From: an uncultured Bacteroidales bacterium | GTDB lineage: Bacteria; Bacteroidota; Bacteroidia; Bacteroidales; Bacteroidaceae | Assembly (NCBI GenBank): GCA_902799685.1 | Contig: CADCBO010000020.1 | Location: 55,693 to 119,692, forward strand | DNA: 64,000 nucleotides | Direction of reading: 5' to 3' | Shown here: one piece after another, positions 30,675-39,006 of the stretch | Position numbering within the stretch: the first letter of the stretch is position 1 | Layout: the number at the start of each line of letters is the position of its first letter | Translations under genes and position numbers: made by a program | Notes under the pieces: model-generated | Database searches by the model: none | Told to the model about the DNA's origin: nothing | Seen by the model: the letters and a program-made list of their open reading frames with translations, nothing else

Positions 30675-32288
30675 TTAATACTCATAGAGTTTAATGTGCA
30701 GTATCTTCCAGTCATCGGTTCCTATGCGGGCGTGGCGGCCCTGATGGCTCTGATCGCCGTTGTGACGGCGTTGATAGACAAACTCCCCTTCCGGGGTTAT
30801 CTCTATCTCATCGACAGACAGCAAGCCCAGGCGTTTACCTTTGAATTTGTCTGACGGTTTTGATTCTACCCCTTCTCCGGATTCGGTAAAACCGTCTTCG
30901 CCCAGCGTCTTTTGCTGCTCCTGCTCTTTCTCTGTGCGGGTCTTGAAATCAACCACTACGCCACATCCGGCCATAATGTAGTCATATTTGCCAAGTTTGA
31001 TAAGGATGGCACCGCCCTCTGGCCATACAGAGCCATCGGTGGCTCGCGCATCCCAGGGCAGAGTGTAGAAATGACGGCAAGTCATTACTGTGCCATCATC
31101 ATCTATAATGCGCTCGCTATCCTCCTGGTCAAACAATAATCCCCAGTTGTTCTTTTTGCTTTTGGGCTCTATGCTTGAGACTTGATTTATCAGGTTATAG
31201 GCCTTTGTTATATTGGCTGTCTCACTAGGGCTTGCCTGGTCTATGGCAAAAGGTGAGAATCCCAGAGCGTCATGCTCGCCGAAAGCATACAAGGCGCGTA
31301 CTCCGCAGTTCCCGCTGCAACGGGTCTCAGGGATAAACAGACGGTTCTTTACCTTGCCGCCATCCTGTGGGCGGGCAGGAATGGCATACTGCGATGCCCA
31401 GGACTTGAATCCTGTGTCATATATATCAGGAGCCAGGAAATCGATGCTTGGGGCTCCTGTGTTCCAGAAATCAATAAGATGAGCCAACGGTCCGGCCGAC
31501 GGGTAATCGCCAGGCTTGCGCCCACGGCTGTTCATGGCCGCATTCACAAATAGAGGCATATCATGTATGGAGCGGGCTGCCTGAGCCAGCTGTTCCACAT
31601 AGCAGGCATAGTGATATGCCATGAATTTTTCATCGGCATAATCGTCGGTGCCGAAGACATCGGACCATGTGCCGCCTTTCTTTATACCCAGAGCCTTGAG
31701 CAGATTTGCCGGGACAGGACCATTGTATGCTTTCTCTGCAAGTGCGGTATGGTCACGTGCCGACTCAAGCATTCCTATCTCATTCTCTATCTGAATCATG
31801 GTGACAACCTGGTGCTGGGGGTCTTTCTGCGCAATCCTGCTAATAAGGGCCTTGAATGCCTTAAGGTCGGCCTGCAGCACATTATCGCTGAAACAGCTTG
31901 CTATCTCCATTGGTTTGCCGCTGGCGGTCTGGGCCCTTGGGAATCTCTTGGTGTCCTGTTTGAACCATCCGGGTGCGTAGCAGGACATGGAATTCTTCCA
32001 CGCACCAAACCACAGGAATACAATATTGAGATTTTCACTCCTGGCTACATCAATTGTCCGGTCAATGAGCGTAAAGTCAAACATGCCCTCCTCTGGTTCC
32101 ATCAGCTCCCAGTATGCCGGAACTAGTACAGTGTTGAGTCCGATTTCTTTCATGCGCGGCAACACCTCATCAATATCGGCTACCGAGGTGGCTGCAGAGT
32201 TACTGAGCTCACCACCCAGAAGCGGAGTCTGAGATACCGCCGGTACGGTCATCATAAGCGTCAACAAAAGTAAGGTTGTTATTTTCAT
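30675..32288 (-). CDS. GH35-like glycosidase (beta-galactosidase type)
   Basis: 537 residues, signal peptide ending PAVS. A (beta/alpha)8 glycosidase: LVPAYWELMEPEEGMFDF, the acid/base in IQIENEIG, and the nucleophile Glu in RLFIPETRCSGN. The layout, with a C-terminal beta region (MAGCGVVVDFKTRTEKE), fits GH35/DUF5597-type proteins that act on galactosides or similar plant glycans. Monocistronic, facing away from the flavodoxin remnant. Confidence 0.75.
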   Translation of the reverse strand: MKITTLLLLTLMMTVPAVSQTPLLGGELSNSAATSVADIDEVLPRMKEIGLNTVLVPAYWELMEPEEGMFDFTLIDRTIDVARSENLNIVFLWFGAWKNSMSCYAPGWFKQDTKRFPRAQTASGKPMEIASCFSDNVLQADLKAFKALISRIAQKDPQHQVVTMIQIENEIGMLESARDHTALAEKAYNGPVPANLLKALGIKKGGTWSDVFGTDDYADEKFMAYHYACYVEQLAQAARSIHDMPLFVNAAMNSRGRKPGDYPSAGPLAHLIDFWNTGAPSIDFLAPDIYDTGFKSWASQYAIPARPQDGGKVKNRLFIPETRCSGNCGVRALYAFGEHDALGFSPFAIDQASPSETANITKAYNLINQVSSIEPKSKKNNWGLLFDQEDSERIIDDDGTVMTCRHFYTLPWDARATDGSVWPEGGAILIKLGKYDYIMAGCGVVVDFKTRTEKEQEQQKTLGEDGFTESGEGVESKPSDKFKGKRLGLLSVDEIEITPEGEFVYQRRHNGDQSHQGRHARIGTDDWKILHIKLYEY

Positions 32289-32609
32289 ACACTTGATTCT
32301 TATTATCTGCGAATATAATCATTTTTATTCAACCGTTTCTTGAAGACATAGGGAATCAATCTTATTGGAGACAGCTCATCTGAAAGCGTGCGATTTTGGA
32401 CAAAATCAGTCGATATCAGCTTTTTCTATTTGTATTGTATCCGAACCACATATTGTAACATTATTGTAACATAGTTGAAACAATTTCTTAATAAGTTCAG
32501 GATACCTTTGTACACTGTGATACTATACCCTGGTATAGGTCACTTCCTCATATAAGCAATTAGGGTTAAATTGCAGGACTGCCGGTGGCCGTGATGATGG
32601 TTGCCGGCA
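32289..32609. promoter_or_regulatory. Long spacer with orphan promoter and tandem 11-bp repeat
   Basis: No gene. TATTGTAACAT is repeated exactly in tandem at 32451-32461 and 32462-32472, followed by a TACCTTTG box at 32503-32510 on the plus strand. The promoter points at the flavodoxin remnant, whose 5' part is gone. The remainder is AT-rich with nothing else recognisable. Confidence 0.5.
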
Positions 32610-32954: not shown

Positions 32955-34133
32955 ATGGAGAATCTGTACAACACTTTCCGCATCAAGCTATCGCTCACCC
33001 CGATGAGCTATTTCCGCAGTTTCCATGATATAATCAACTGGAACAGCCGCCTCATCTGTATCATGGGTCAAAAGGGTGTTGGAAAATCCACCCTAATGCT
33101 TCAGCACATCAAACAGTATGATAATCTGGATGAGACCCTCTATGTGTCGGCCGATAACATGTACTTTGCTGGCCATACACTTTATGAATTGGCCGGTACT
33201 TTCTTTTCTCATGGAGGAAAGCGTCTTTATATAGACGAAATCCATAAATACAAAGGTTGGTCCACCGAGATCAAGAACATTTATGATGACTATCCTTCTC
33301 TACAAGTTGTATATTCCGGCAGCAGCCTCCTGGCTCTCAAGCAAGACAACAAAGCTGACCTGAGTCGCCGCAGTATCCCTTATGAGATGCCAGGTCTGTC
33401 ATTCCGCGAGTTTCTGAACATCCGTAACGGATGGAACCTCAAGACCTCTACACTTGAAGAGATTCTTCAAGGTAAAGTGGATTTCCCATACGGTGAGCAT
33501 CGGCCAATAAAATACTACAAGGAGTACTGCCGCATTGGGTTCTATCCATTTTTCAAGGAAGGCGATGCTGAAATCCGTCTCCAGAACGCAATCCTGGCCA
33601 ACATTGAGGACGATATTCCCAAATACGCAGAGATGACAGTGGCCGCTGCCGCAAAACTCAAGAAACTGATGTATATACTAGCCAAAAGCGTCCCCTTCAA
33701 ACCCAGCAATGAAACGTTAGGCCGGGATTTGTCACTTAGCCGCAACGTCGTTCCGGATTACATAGGTTATCTGGAAACGTCCGGATTGTTCAATGCACTA
33801 AGGGATCCAGGCTATAGCGACACCATACTAGGCAAAATAGAAAAACTGTATCTGGGCAATAGTAACATTGCTTATTCGCTTTCAGAAGACGGAATAATAA
33901 ACGGCGGAAATATGCGGGAGACCAACTTCCTGGCCTGGACCAGGCAAGTTTGCAAGCCAACATCATCAAAGATATCCGATTTTGAGATTAACGGAATCAC
34001 TTTCGAGGTTGGTGGCAAAAACAAGAAAGGCCAGCAGATTAAGGAGGCTCAATCAGGTTACCTAGTGAAAGATAATCTGGAATACGCATCGGGACATTCC
34101 ATACCAATATGGATGTTCGGGTTCCTGTATTAA
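32955..34133 (+). CDS. AAA ATPase (DUF4143-type ATP-binding protein)
   Basis: 392 residues. Walker A GQKGVGKST (38-46), Walker B RLYIDEIHK and the sensor-like VVYSGSS; the C-terminal half (FEINGITFEVGGKNKKGQQI) is the nuclease-like DUF4143 region. Typical of a large family of standalone prokaryotic ATPases of unknown role. A TATATTTG box at 32929-32936 lies just upstream of the ATG. Confidence 0.8.
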   Translation: MENLYNTFRIKLSLTPMSYFRSFHDIINWNSRLICIMGQKGVGKSTLMLQHIKQYDNLDETLYVSADNMYFAGHTLYELAGTFFSHGGKRLYIDEIHKYKGWSTEIKNIYDDYPSLQVVYSGSSLLALKQDNKADLSRRSIPYEMPGLSFREFLNIRNGWNLKTSTLEEILQGKVDFPYGEHRPIKYYKEYCRIGFYPFFKEGDAEIRLQNAILANIEDDIPKYAEMTVAAAAKLKKLMYILAKSVPFKPSNETLGRDLSLSRNVVPDYIGYLETSGLFNALRDPGYSDTILGKIEKLYLGNSNIAYSLSEDGIINGGNMRETNFLAWTRQVCKPTSSKISDFEINGITFEVGGKNKKGQQIKEAQSGYLVKDNLEYASGHSIPIWMFGFLY

Positions 34134-34173
34134 AAGATAATAATTTCAAATCAGACATATGCAATAAAAGGAT

Positions 34174-35277
34174 ATGGATAGAAGCAAACAGATAATAAGG
34201 ACTAGCTGGATTGGTATTGGGGCCAATGTGCTGCTGGCTGGTTTCAAGGCTGCGGTTGGCGTGTTGGCCAGTAGCGTGGCTATTGTGATGGATGCGGTTA
34301 ACAACCTGAGCGATGCGCTGTCAAGCGTTATTACTATAGTTGGTACAAAACTGTCACAACGCCCTGCTGACCGCAAGCATCCGTTTGGGTTTGGCCGGAT
34401 TGAGTATTTCAGCGCCATCATCATTGCGGTGATTGTGCTATCGGCAGGTATTACGTCACTGATAGAATCCGTAAAGAAGATTATCGAGCCCACAAAGCCC
34501 AGTTACACAACAGTTACGCTTATCGTGATCATCGTAGCTATTGCTGTAAAGATTGTGCTGGGACTGTATGTAAAGCGCAAAGGTGAGCAACTAAAGAGCG
34601 ATGCCCTGACCGCCTCCGGGGCCGATGCCCTATTCGACGCTATCATCACATTGGCCACACTTGTATCGGCTGGAGTTATGTTGCTGTGGAATGTATCTCT
34701 TGACGGTATTCTGGGCGCATTGATATCGGTAGTTATCATCAAGGCTGGTATTGAGATGCTTGCAGGGCCAGTGAATGACCTGCTGGGCACAAGCATACCG
34801 GCAGAGCTTGCCAGCCAGATAAAGAAAGAGGTTTCTGAATTTGAAGGCGTTCATGGAGTGTATGACCTGATTCTCCACAACTACGGTCCCGATGTAAAGA
34901 TAGGCTCACTGCATATCAGCGTATATGACACAATGAACGCACATGATATTCATGGTCTTACACGCAGGATATCAACTATAATGTTTGAGCGGCACGGAAT
35001 CATAATGACGGTTGGAGTTTATGCCGCAGCCACCGGCGATAATAAACGCACAGAACTGCAGAACAAGGTTATTCAGACGCTGGCTGCAAATAAGGAGATT
35101 GTGCAAGTACATGGTTTCTACTACTCAGAAAAAGACAATATGCTTACTGTAGATGTAGTGCCCGATGATACAACACACGATGATGCAGCACTAGTAAGCA
35201 AACTGACAGCACAGATTGAACCCTTGACACCTGGATTACAGGTAACAATCGTAGTTGACCACAACTACTGCGAATAA
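34174..35277 (+). CDS. Cation diffusion facilitator (CDF) metal exporter
   Basis: 367 residues: six membrane helices with the metal-site segments MDAVNNLSDALSSV and SGADALFDAIITLA, the KHPFGFGRIEYFSA loop, and a cytoplasmic ferredoxin-like domain (LILHNYGPDVKIGSLHISVYDTMNAHDIH). Exports Zn2+, Mn2+ or Fe2+ against protons. It is longer than minimal CDF proteins, with an extra ~75-residue C-terminal region (QVHGFYYSEKDNMLTVDVV). Overlaps the HAD gene by 1 bp (TAATG). Confidence 0.85.
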   Translation: MDRSKQIIRTSWIGIGANVLLAGFKAAVGVLASSVAIVMDAVNNLSDALSSVITIVGTKLSQRPADRKHPFGFGRIEYFSAIIIAVIVLSAGITSLIESVKKIIEPTKPSYTTVTLIVIIVAIAVKIVLGLYVKRKGEQLKSDALTASGADALFDAIITLATLVSAGVMLLWNVSLDGILGALISVVIIKAGIEMLAGPVNDLLGTSIPAELASQIKKEVSEFEGVHGVYDLILHNYGPDVKIGSLHISVYDTMNAHDIHGLTRRISTIMFERHGIIMTVGVYAAATGDNKRTELQNKVIQTLAANKEIVQVHGFYYSEKDNMLTVDVVPDDTTHDDAALVSKLTAQIEPLTPGLQVTIVVDHNYCE

Positions 35278-36080
35278 TGACCGATAAGTACGCATTGTTT
35301 TTTGATATTGACGGAACGCTGGTGAGTTTCAATACCCACCAGATTCCGCAATCTACCATCCGTGCATTGACCGATGCCAAAGCAAACGGAGCACAAATAT
35401 ATATCGCCACCGGACGTCCGCCCATGATTATCTCCAATCTGGGCGCAATTGAGCATCTTATTGACGGATACATAACCATAAACGGCGCACTGTGTTATAT
35501 TGGCAAGGAACTTGTGTGCTATCATCCCATACCTCATCAGGATGTGATTACCTGTGTCCAGGACTCACAGGAAAAGGGATATGGTCTGATTGTAGTGGGA
35601 CGTGACAAGGCAGCAGTACTTGACCCTACCGGCAGTGTGGATCGCGTATTCCGTCAGTATCTCAACGTAAAGGAGTTTGACCATACATCACCCCTTGAGG
35701 AACTGCTAAATCAGGATGTCCTGCAACTGACCGCCTTCTTTGATGCCGATTATGAAAAGCAGATGCTTCAACGGATGCCTAATTGCGTGTCCGGCCGATG
35801 GCATCCCGAGTTTACTGACATAACCGCCCGTGAGGCCGATAAAGGCAAAGGCATTCAGGCAATTGCCCGATATAAGGATTTTGACCCCAGCCACACCATC
35901 GCCTTTGGCGACGGCGGCAATGACCTCTCAATGATTCTGCAGGCAGGAATAGGCGTAGCAATGGGCAATGCCACTCCTGAGCTTAAACAGCATGCCGATT
36001 ACATAACTGACCCTGTAGATGAAGACGGCATCCTCAACGCCATAAATCATTTACTTTTGCACAACGGTAAGAGTATATGA
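35277..36080 (+). CDS. Cof-type HAD-IIB phosphatase
   Basis: 267 residues: FFDIDGTLVSF (catalytic aspartates), ATGRPP (motif II) and FGDGGNDLSMI (motif IV), with a C2-type cap. Dephosphorylates sugar phosphates or cofactors. Translationally coupled at both ends (1 bp with the CDF gene, 4 bp with the BASS transporter gene). Confidence 0.85.
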   Translation: MTDKYALFFDIDGTLVSFNTHQIPQSTIRALTDAKANGAQIYIATGRPPMIISNLGAIEHLIDGYITINGALCYIGKELVCYHPIPHQDVITCVQDSQEKGYGLIVVGRDKAAVLDPTGSVDRVFRQYLNVKEFDHTSPLEELLNQDVLQLTAFFDADYEKQMLQRMPNCVSGRWHPEFTDITAREADKGKGIQAIARYKDFDPSHTIAFGDGGNDLSMILQAGIGVAMGNATPELKQHADYITDPVDEDGILNAINHLLLHNGKSI

Positions 36081-36994
36081 AAAAAATCTGTCAGTTCATC
36101 TCCAAGTACATGGGCGTGCTGGTATTTGCAGCTGCAGTGCTGGCATTTGTATTTCCCGATACACTCTCCAAAATACGCCCCACGGTCATAAACTATCTGC
36201 TGGGCGTTGTCATGTTCGGTATGGGTCTTACGCTCAACCTGCAGGATTTCAAGATCGTATTCAGCCGTCCCAAGGATATCATCATAGGCTGTCTGGCCCA
36301 GTTCACCATCATGCCCCTTCTGGCATGGGTGCTGGCACGTGTGTTCAGGCTCGATGATGCACTGGCATTGGGCGTGGTACTGGTGGGTTGCTGCCCCGGC
36401 GGTACCGCATCGAACGTAATAACCTATCTGGCCAAAGGAGATCTGGCACTGTCAGTGGGCATGACTGGAGTATCCACTATTCTGGCCCCGTTCCTCACTC
36501 CGCTGCTCACATGGGCGCTTGCCGGCGAGAGTATCAACGTGGATGTGCTTGGAATGCTGCTGAGCATACTCTGGGTGGTAATTCTACCCATTGTAGTAGG
36601 TCTTATCATAAAGAGTCTTTGGCCCAAGTTTACCGATAAGGCCGTCGATTATCTGCCCGCATTCTCATCGGTGGCTATTGCATTTATCGTAGCTATCGTA
36701 ATTGCGGCCAATGCAAACAAGTTGCTGGCAGGTGGTCTGATTATCGTGCTTGTAGTGATGCTCCACAACATATGCGGACTGGGACTGGGTTACGTTATAG
36801 GATGCTTGCTCAGACTATCTGAGCCCAAGAAACGTGCCATATCAATAGAAGTAGGTATGCAGAACTCCGGTCTGGCATCATCACTGGCCACCCTGCACTT
36901 TGCCGCCTACCCTTTAGCTACCATACCCGGCGCCATATTCAGCGTCTGGCACAACATCAGCGGCGCCATCGTAGCATATCTGTTCCGGAAATAA
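36077..36994 (+). CDS. Bile acid:sodium symporter family (BASS) transporter
   Basis: 305 residues, nine or ten helices. Family features: MFGMGLTLNLQDFKIVFSRPK, LVGCCPGGTASNVITYLAKGDLALSVGMT and EVGMQNSGLASSLATLHF. BASS proteins carry organic anions with Na+; bile salts, pantoate and keto acids are known substrates in the family. Third gene of the CDF-HAD-BASS operon. Confidence 0.85.
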   Translation: MKKICQFISKYMGVLVFAAAVLAFVFPDTLSKIRPTVINYLLGVVMFGMGLTLNLQDFKIVFSRPKDIIIGCLAQFTIMPLLAWVLARVFRLDDALALGVVLVGCCPGGTASNVITYLAKGDLALSVGMTGVSTILAPFLTPLLTWALAGESINVDVLGMLLSILWVVILPIVVGLIIKSLWPKFTDKAVDYLPAFSSVAIAFIVAIVIAANANKLLAGGLIIVLVVMLHNICGLGLGYVIGCLLRLSEPKKRAISIEVGMQNSGLASSLATLHFAAYPLATIPGAIFSVWHNISGAIVAYLFRK

Positions 36995-37032
36995 ACGATA
37001 TTAAGATTATGTTACAATCAATCTGAGGTCTT

Positions 37033-37061
37033 TTTGAAACGAGAGAATTGCCTTATATTTG
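37033..37061 (+). promoter_or_regulatory. Promoter of the Na/Pi-PhoU-winged-helix gene
   Basis: TTTG at 37033-37036 and TATATTTG at 37054-37061, 17 nt apart (slightly short). The box excludes the Met codon at 37048 as a start. An ATG at 37064 opens an eight-codon frame (MKTKRKRC, stop TAG). Confidence 0.5.
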
Positions 37062-37083
37062 CCATGAAAACAAAAAGAAAAAG

Positions 37084-39006
37084 ATGTTAGTTGTGAAGGT
37101 CATGAGCGAGGCGTTGCAGAAGATGGCAGGCCCGCAACTGCGTCACCTGTTGGGCGCAATGACCACCAACCGTTTCTCAGGGGTAGCAACAGGAGCACTT
37201 GTAACAGTAGCCGTGCAGTCATCGGCAGCAACCACCGTAATGACTGTGTCATTCGTAAACGCGGCACTTCTTACACTGAGCCAGGCAATATCGGTCATAA
37301 TGGGTGCCAACATAGGTACCACGCTGAGCGCCTGGATCATGTCGGCAGGATTCTCATTCAACATTGCAAATCTGGTCTGGCCGGCATTCCTGATAGGAAT
37401 CATCCTTATTCAATTAGGTAAGCACCGTTATATAGGCGATTTCCTTTTCGGAATCAGTTTTCTGCTGTTTGCCTTAGGCATGCTCAACCAGACCGGCCGC
37501 GACATGGACCTGGCGCACAATCCTGCAGTCGTAAACTTCTTTGCATCATTTGACTCAGGCAGTTACTGGACCATTCTGCTGTTCCTTCTTATAGGCACCA
37601 TACTTACCTGTATTGCGCAGTCATCGGCCGCACTTATGGCTATCACCATGGTGCTTTGCTCAACCGGAGTGATAACCATATTCCAAGGTATTGCGCTGGT
37701 TATGGGTGAGAATATAGGTACCACCCTGACAGCAAACCTGGCCGCGATGTCGGCCAACACACAGGCACGCCGCGCTGCTATGGCCCATCTGGTGTTCAAT
37801 GTGATAGGCGTAGTTTGGGTGCTGATACTCTTCTTCCCGTTTGTAAGGATGGTATGCCGCGTAGTAGGCATTGATGTCACGGCCGATGCAGTTGACCCGG
37901 CACGACTCACATTTGCGCTTGCCACGTTCCATACGGCGTTCAACGTGATAAACACATCACTTCTGATAGGTTTTATACCTCAACTTGAGAAACTGGTATG
38001 CAATATCATCAAGCCCCGCAAGACAGATGAGGAGGACGAGTTCCGTCTGCAGTTCATACGCGGCGGTATCATGAAGACTCCGGAAATATCGGTCCTGCAG
38101 GCACAGAAGGAGATTGTTATATTCGGCGAGAAGATGCAGCACATGTTCCAGATGGTTAAGGAACTCTATGCCACCACGCAGGATGAGGAGTTCAAGAAAC
38201 TGTTTGAACGCATCCAGAAGACCGAGGACATTAGCGACCGCATGGAACAGGAGATTGGCAAGTACCTGGGTGATGTGGGTGATGCACATTTGTCAGACGA
38301 CACCAAAGAGAAGATACGCGCCATGCTCCGTCAGATAGGTGAACTGGAGTCAATAGGTGACAGTTGCTTCGGACTGGCACGAATCATGCGCCGCAAGAGG
38401 GAGAACAGCATTGTATTCAACGATGAGCAGGAAGCCGGAGTTCAGCAGATGTTCGGACTCCTGGATCAGGCCCTGACCCGTATGAACGAACTTCTGGCCG
38501 GACGTCGTGAGGAGTATGACATAACCCTGTCCGAGGAGCTTGAGAACAGCATAAACGGTTGCCGCAACCGACTCAAGCAATGGAACATCAGCAATCTTGA
38601 CCAGCACATTTACGACTACGATAACGGAACCGTATTCGCTGATCTTATCATAGAGTGCGAAAAGAACGGAGACTACATCATCAACGTAGTTGAATCCCGT
38701 CTGCGCGCCACACGTAACGGCATACGTTACAAAGGCATACAGTTGGATACGGACAGCAAGACCGTAACCATTGACGGACAGCAGGTCCCATTCACCAAGA
38801 CTGAGTATGAGATGCTCAAACTGTTCCTCATGAACCGTGGCACGGTCTATTCACGTGAGCAGTTGCTCCAGTCAGTCTGGCCCGATGACGTCGTTGTCAA
38901 TGCCCGCACGGTTGATGTCAACATCACCCGCATCCGCAAGAAAATCGAGCCTTACGCAGATCATCTCATCACCCGCGCCGGTTACGGTTACTCCTTCCAG
39001 GAATAA
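37084..39006 (+). CDS. Na/Pi cotransporter-PhoU protein fused to an OmpR-type winged helix
   Basis: 640 residues in one uninterrupted frame. Residues ~6-330 are a Na/Pi cotransporter with both QSS repeats (VAVQSSAATTVMTVSFVN, CIAQSSAALMAITMVL). About 345-540 is a PhoU-like helical domain (MVKELYATTQDEEFKKLFERI, RQIGELESIGDSCFGLARIM). From ~546 to the end is a response-regulator DNA-binding domain (DGQQVPFTKTEYEMLKLF, NRGTVYSREQLLQSVW, ARTVDVNITRIRKKI, RAGYGYSF). There is no receiver domain. The usual first transmembrane segment before MSEALQ is absent: the frame starts MLVVKVMSEALQ. The start is uncertain; ATG 37084 is the first after the promoter. Such a fusion would be a membrane-bound transcription factor coupled to phosphate transport. 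Confidence 0.8.
   Translation: MLVVKVMSEALQKMAGPQLRHLLGAMTTNRFSGVATGALVTVAVQSSAATTVMTVSFVNAALLTLSQAISVIMGANIGTTLSAWIMSAGFSFNIANLVWPAFLIGIILIQLGKHRYIGDFLFGISFLLFALGMLNQTGRDMDLAHNPAVVNFFASFDSGSYWTILLFLLIGTILTCIAQSSAALMAITMVLCSTGVITIFQGIALVMGENIGTTLTANLAAMSANTQARRAAMAHLVFNVIGVVWVLILFFPFVRMVCRVVGIDVTADAVDPARLTFALATFHTAFNVINTSLLIGFIPQLEKLVCNIIKPRKTDEEDEFRLQFIRGGIMKTPEISVLQAQKEIVIFGEKMQHMFQMVKELYATTQDEEFKKLFERIQKTEDISDRMEQEIGKYLGDVGDAHLSDDTKEKIRAMLRQIGELESIGDSCFGLARIMRRKRENSIVFNDEQEAGVQQMFGLLDQALTRMNELLAGRREEYDITLSEELENSINGCRNRLKQWNISNLDQHIYDYDNGTVFADLIIECEKNGDYIINVVESRLRATRNGIRYKGIQLDTDSKTVTIDGQQVPFTKTEYEMLKLFLMNRGTVYSREQLLQSVWPDDVVVNARTVDVNITRIRKKIEPYADHLITRAGYGYSFQE

Follow-up and report, generated by a model that had tools for sequence, protein, structure and literature searches.

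A putative Na/Pi symporter joined to a PhoU region and a PhoB-type DNA-binding domain in gut Bacteroidales, and its possible autoregulation

The window (the whole stretch of DNA analysed, 64,000 nucleotides from an uncultured Bacteroidales bacterium) contains on its forward strand a single open frame, 37048-39006, encoding a Na/Pi symporter, a PhoU-like region and an OmpR/PhoB-type winged helix. The first in-frame ATG, at 37084, lies 22 nt beyond a Bacteroides-type -7 box, and the next is found at 37102. The start was set at the former because the -7 box is just ahead of it, and because the aligned frames of relatives place their ATG at the same point. The preceding stretch, 37033-37083, is probably promoter and leader rather than coding sequence. 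An earlier, sequence-only reading had given the feature as 37033-39006; the end of this interval stands, but its beginning is to be moved to the likely start at 37084. The promoter elements were placed with the Bacteroides consensus, which I take to be TTTG at -33 and TAnnTTTG at -7. All features are listed in Table 1.

Table 1. Location of the fused gene, its domains and the associated candidate sites in the window.
Feature	Position	Strand	Basis
Fused gene, likely coding region, 640 aa	37084..39006	+	-7 box and starts of relatives
Na/Pi symporter, two repeats, motifs QSSAAT and QSSAAL, frame residues 16-324	37093..38019	+	Profile matches
Junction lacking 14 codons (first membrane helix) of relatives	37094..37095	+	Alignment, hydropathy
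PhoU domain, residues 360-446	38125..38385	+	PF01895
PhoB-type DNA-binding domain, residues 554-651	38707..39000	+	NF053854 positions 128-225, 121.4 bits, 3.4e-35
Recognition helix RTVDVNITRIRKKI, residues 620-633	38905..38946	+	Lies within the PhoB-type domain
Candidate Pho-box-like site, two 11-bp direct repeats ATTAAGATTAT / GTTACAATCAA	37000..37021	+	Repeat pattern, matrix
-33-like TTTG	37033..37036	+	Resemblance to assumed Bacteroides consensus
-7-like TATATTTG	37054..37061	+	Resemblance to assumed consensus TAnnTTTG
Second candidate Pho-box-like array, about four 11-bp units	32452..32491	-	Pattern scan

The frame had been described as a two-repeat Na/Pi cotransporter followed by a PhoU-like domain and a complete winged helix, with no receiver, and Pfam matches bear this out. 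Na_Pi_cotrans (PF02690) matches two stretches (8.4e-50), PhoU (PF01895) is found at 3.3e-06 (27.8 bits, for a cut-off of 23.5), and Trans_reg_C (PF00486) matches at 1.3e-20 over positions 1-77 of 77, and is therefore complete. Domain profile searches gave no match to a receiver domain in the frame, and none to histidine kinase domains in the fused protein. The symporter part scores 173.1 with NF037997, above the cut-off of 50, and 196.2 with TIGR00704, below the cut-off of 210.1; the only solved relatives found for it are SLC34A2 chains (best 9z60, 7.9e-14). In a model of the sister record L035, renumbered, the helical region continues to about residue 552. Judged by these matches, the fused protein is a putative NptA-type Na/Pi symporter with a PhoU region, and phosphate transport is predicted. 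Its membrane part is polytopic, by hydropathy and in the model, and the winged helix is C-terminal, where it would lie on the cytoplasmic side if the NptA family is taken as a guide.

The usual first membrane helix had been reported missing, which is true of the window sequence: the N-terminus of relatives is 14 residues longer, the extra residues forming a hydrophobic helix, and the corresponding 42 nt are absent, in frame, from the window copy. The full membrane-helix set of NptA-type symporters is thus found in the relatives and not in the window copy, which may be without transport. L035, 99% identical to the window copy over the transporter-PhoU columns, has the helix. Window and L006/L035 agree at every position of the 99 bp before the junction, and by eye the microhomology at the 42-nt junction is at most 1 nt. 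As far as seen, the N-terminal loss is confined to this assembly, as a real variant or an assembly error, and is not part of the family's design. The idea that this loss and the fusion arose as one event finds no support: the fusion is shared and old, and the helix loss was seen in this assembly only.

The sequence-only reading had proposed a search for the same domain order in further genomes, and had named the lack of any second genome with it as an argument against itself; the fusion is present in dozens. It was found in 21 of the 37 genomes of the genus, the window's own included (in G009 as a split record), and in 38 of the best 80 named loci, at 61-98% identity (L061 being split), the remaining 42 being unfused, at 67-77% identity. 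These two sets overlap, eight fused named loci matching contigs of the genus set in length. By their titles, most named records are ruminant-gut metagenome bins, from several projects. An assembly chimera was rejected, as dozens of bins, produced by several projects, have the same junction; the fusion is no assembly accident. No further match spanning PhoU and winged helix was seen among the matches listed for 295 genomes of the order and 395 of the phylum, in a survey that scored only the best five to seven candidates per genome.

Two fused copies are present in each of G338, G342 and G343, and a fused and an unfused copy occur together in G366 and G379 and, going by the titles of L051 and L087, in RUG13332. 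The fused copy of L025/L061 is broken into two frames; an ambiguous residue lies close to the break, which may be due to an assembly gap. A 73-aa frame elsewhere (G364:C106:24854-25069) matches the PhoB winged helix only, and is perhaps a detached remnant.

In a quick tree of the transporter-PhoU part (99 rows, 48 fused and 51 unfused, with 12 near-copies or broken rows dropped), fused and unfused rows are intermixed, and 13 changes are needed, at least seven of them on starred branches. The tree of the DNA-binding domain (97 columns, including ten PhoB-like regulators and two RprY, two further regulators being left out) places the fused domains in two groups, of 38 (support 92/84) and of 10 (100/99). 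All 48 fused domains form one clade in 4% of bootstrap trees, yet this arrangement is not rejected (p-AU 0.278). One or two fusions with repeated losses fit best, the direction of change being what I infer from these trees. The abundance of unfused relatives suggests that the transporter can do without the tail.

Among 16 core copies, the winged helix has a median dN of 0.082 and dS of 1.005, similar to the PhoU part (0.088 and 1.060), with the transporter part tighter (0.028 and 0.872). For the winged helix, pooled pN/pS amounts to 0.13 in the core and 0.14 in eight mid-distance copies, and is higher farther out (0.47 in 14 copies and 0.38 in 10), where large distances are near saturation. 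Going by these substitution rates, the winged helix is under purifying selection in the core clade.

By NCBIfam, fold and sequence, the winged helix can be assigned specifically to the DNA-binding domain of Bacteroidales PhoB. Bacteroidales PhoB (NF053854) is the top regulator family with 121.4 bits, followed by TIGR02154 PhoB (81.5) and RprY (44.1), and RprY was rejected as the donor of the tail on this difference (44 vs 121 bits). The full-length NF053854 cut-off of 270 is not reached, the receiver being absent. The AlphaFold2 model of L035 (72 rows, mean pLDDT 83, pTM 0.52) shows an OmpR-type winged helix, for which the best solved matches by Foldseek are 1gxq and 1gxp, structures of the PhoB effector domain by itself and in complex with pho box DNA (TM 0.84 of target), and the best phmmer match of the winged helix is E. 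coli PhoB (6.2e-15).

Fusion by deletion between neighbouring genes finds no support in the four PhoB loci listed: in three of them PhoB is divergent to phosphate-transport genes, and the fourth is short and begins just before PhoB. In each of the three, a PhoB gene over the cut-off is followed by a kinase gene, and is divergent to a Na/Pi-PhoU gene (G013), a PHO4-family gene (G018) or, by eye, a porin-Pst-Na/Pi cluster (G035). The kinase of G018 is PhoR-like, yet scores under the PhoR family cut-off. Another unusual phosphate-transport fusion was encountered in the genus, where L155 (2979-4925, minus strand) and five other genomes encode a PstS-type binding protein and a PstC permease in one frame of about 650-700 aa (domains checked in L155).

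No gene family neighbours the fused gene in more than seven of the loci laid out. When L006/L035 are compared with window positions 34013-37094, they have no match to the window's HAD gene (about 35278-36077) or to most of its SBF transporter gene (about 36224-36996).

Many fused genes are preceded by two 11-bp direct repeats, approximately GTTAaAATtnTGTTAcAATt. Counted from the transcript start that the -7 box would give, this Pho-box-like site of the window occupies about -68 to -47, ahead of the -33 element, a position that would suit activation. A pattern drawn by eye, which like the recognition-helix classes was fixed after the promoters had been seen, is matched at 12 or more of 14 letters in 26 of 48 fused promoters and in none of 42 unfused ones (nine outgroup rows are without promoter, and for L105 just about 20 nt is available). 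Only the matrix scores are held out. Trained on 16 core promoters (six different sites) and used at a 99% shuffle threshold, the matrix passes in 11 of the 13 remaining fused genes with a canonical PhoB-like recognition helix, in none of 19 fused genes with an altered helix, and in none of 42 unfused genes; its matches sit 73-83 nt before the start codon. The two canonical-helix misses are L024, which has a weaker site at the same distance, and L042. The mean repeat signal likewise has its maximum at lag 11 in the 28 scored canonical promoters, and has no such peak as a group in 19 altered-helix and 41 unfused promoters.

An altered recognition helix and no site go together in 19 of the 48 fused copies. 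Two altered-helix genes of the second group (L108, L113) have TTGATAAA repeats at about 11-bp spacing, perhaps reflecting a changed specificity. Over independent tree pairs, helix and site go in the same direction in two to three of four (mean 2.7) and never in the opposite one, which is not significant, four pairs being too few to reach significance; for fused state and site, the corresponding figure is one to three of seven.

Sites of the same kind precede phoB itself. Scored for GTTNCAA repeats with 11-bp spacing, ten phoB upstream regions average 10.3 of 12, and six of them reach 11 or 12; the mean is 7.76, with none above 9, in 25 rprY loci, assigned by score with one (L185 = L154) confirmed by family. 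Since the rprY upstream regions are largely coding, shuffles served as a second control: seven of the ten phoB regions reach p 0.03 or less, and in those of L190, L191 and L210 the repeats do not exceed what shuffles give. Directly before phoB of G003 stands an array of three units with one mismatch. The repeats ahead of the canonical fused genes resemble those ahead of phoB, and in that sense may be called Pho-box-like.

In each of nine fused genomes, the best genome-wide match lies in front of the fused gene; it is exact in eight of them and has a single mismatch in G006. In this genome, the array at 32452-32491 is the only three-unit match with zero mismatches. It lies between a GH42/DUF5597-type gene (30675-32288, minus strand) and an AAA_14 gene (32955-34133, plus strand), and is a possible further target of the fused protein. 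The three-unit scan of this genome gave 19 matches and its control 7; many of the 19 are GTTGCAA repeats resembling another element. A wider regulon was rejected, as scans allowing two mismatches or fewer barely exceed the reversed-pattern control; most other hits inspected are inside genes.

This genome has two Trans_reg_C domains over the cut-off, in the fusion and in RprY. Within the genus, a separate PhoB over the cut-off was found in none of the 21 fused genomes and in five of the 16 non-fused ones, being missing from 11 (Fisher p 0.010), and PhoR at E 1e-60 or better occurs in four of 37 genomes, none of them fused. In a second set (50 further genomes, of 70 first listed), PhoB exceeds the cut-off in two of 28 fused genomes (G340, G344) and in one of 22 unfused-locus genomes, being missing from 21. 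A PhoB-like protein in a further fused genome, G351, reaches 263.6 bits, just under the cut-off of 270. With G351 included, the counts are 3/28 vs 1/22 (p 0.62), at least two genomes (G366, G379) being treated as unfused though a fused copy is also present. This weakens the idea of strict exclusion between fusion and PhoB. The second set lacks the contrast between fused and unfused genomes, and PhoB scarcity is therefore common to the whole group. Over both sets, a separate PhoB was not found in 46 of 49 fused genomes, a count taken from incomplete drafts (G000, 85.83%) in which weaker or partial regulators of G338, G342 and G343 are unclassified. In the order at large, PhoB is present in 29 of 119.

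On balance, I think it probable that the transporter is a membrane-tethered one-component regulator that autoregulates its own gene. In this view, an NptA-type Na/Pi symporter acquired the DNA-binding half of PhoB at the end of its PhoU region, once or twice among the ancestors of these lineages, and the added half was probably lost many times afterwards. Where the PhoB-like recognition helix was kept, the protein would probably bind the two 11-bp repeats before its own gene, acting from the cytoplasmic side of the membrane; binding just upstream of the -33/-7 promoter would tune the expression of the fused gene. With the PhoB half joined to the PhoU region, the kinase step would be removed, and the switch would be the state of either the transporter or the PhoU region in place of phosphorylation, with phosphate as the presumed signal. 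The computed basis of this proposal comprises the architecture, the origin of the domain, the selection on it, the site with its helix association, and the scarcity of separate PhoB. A more tentative version, which I consider possible rather than probable, is that the transport or PhoU state directly switches the PhoB domain of the same chain at its own Pho box and replaces the whole PhoR-PhoB pair, altered-helix variants having moved to other sites or losing function. As to the sign of regulation, a study of PhoRB in B. fragilis reports a 101-fold drop of the putative Na-dependent phosphate transporter BF4351 when the wild type is in low phosphate, and for the phoB mutant lists this transporter as unchanged (PMC3547664). 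Because this transporter drops in low phosphate in a PhoB-dependent manner, repression would be as possible as activation.

It is also conceivable, although in my view unlikely, that the winged helix of the fusion does not work as a DNA binder and is instead a passenger or a module for protein contacts, the site being served by a separate PhoB. Many relatives lack the domain or have it in altered form, PhoB occurs alongside the fusion in G340 and G344 and comes near the cut-off in G351, the drafts have gaps, and G338, G342 and G343 contain weaker or partial regulators of unassigned class; however, the site persists while PhoB exceeds the cut-off in none of 21 and two of 28 fused genomes, it tracks both fusion and helix, and the core domain is under purifying selection. 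Some membrane-bound regulators are released by proteolysis, and the tail could likewise be a soluble regulator that is active only once it has been cleaved off the membrane part or made from an internal start; this I regard as improbable.

There is a slim chance that the site is a relic of a PhoB-controlled transporter gene, and that the fusion regulates other targets or none. Similar repeats do lie between the divergent phoB and phosphate-transport genes in G013 and G018, and weaker ones in G035, and the array at 32452-32491 fits this reading as well, but none of the 42 unfused relatives has the site, which is the only exact match in eight of nine fused genomes. An assembly chimera or recent pseudogene is extremely improbable, and for the fusion already refuted: most named records are metagenome bins and the window copy is without its first helix, but the junction is common to dozens of bins from several projects and dN is well below dS.

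Four known systems come closest to the fusion. With Bacteroidales PhoB (NF053854) it shares the DNA-binding domain, the recognition helix and the 11-bp repeat sites, but it has no receiver and no kinase, and the domain is carried by a transporter. S. aureus NptA also combines transporter and PhoU domain, and this C-terminal PhoU domain is reported to affect PhoPR activity; NptA signals through a separate two-component system, whereas here the DNA-binding domain is attached, and the main text on NptA mentions neither fusion nor DNA-binding (PMC13170248). ToxR and CadC likewise have a membrane-tethered winged helix without a phosphorylation domain, but they are bitopic, with an N-terminal winged helix and a periplasmic sensor (PMC5936718), whereas the fusion has a C-terminal winged helix on a polytopic transporter; LysP with CadC is its two-protein analogue. 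Like ToxR and CadC, the fused protein has winged helix and membrane part in one chain with no receiver, and DNA binding from the membrane as in these proteins is predicted via the association of site and helix. The CbrA transceptor also unites transporter and signalling output in one chain, its output being a histidine kinase and that of the fusion a DNA-binding domain (PMC13022988). Among the matches listed in the open-access literature, none describes a transporter with its own DNA-binding domain.

How the flux of phosphate through its transporter is relayed to PhoB is still debated as a question, and transporter, PhoU, PhoR and PhoB are usually separate or almost separate proteins. In these bacteria the path seems to have been shortened by evolution to one chain, and the coupling is therefore directly testable, with one protein, one site and one promoter. 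In this group of gut bacteria, a phosphate importer with a PhoB tail may thus directly control its own gene.
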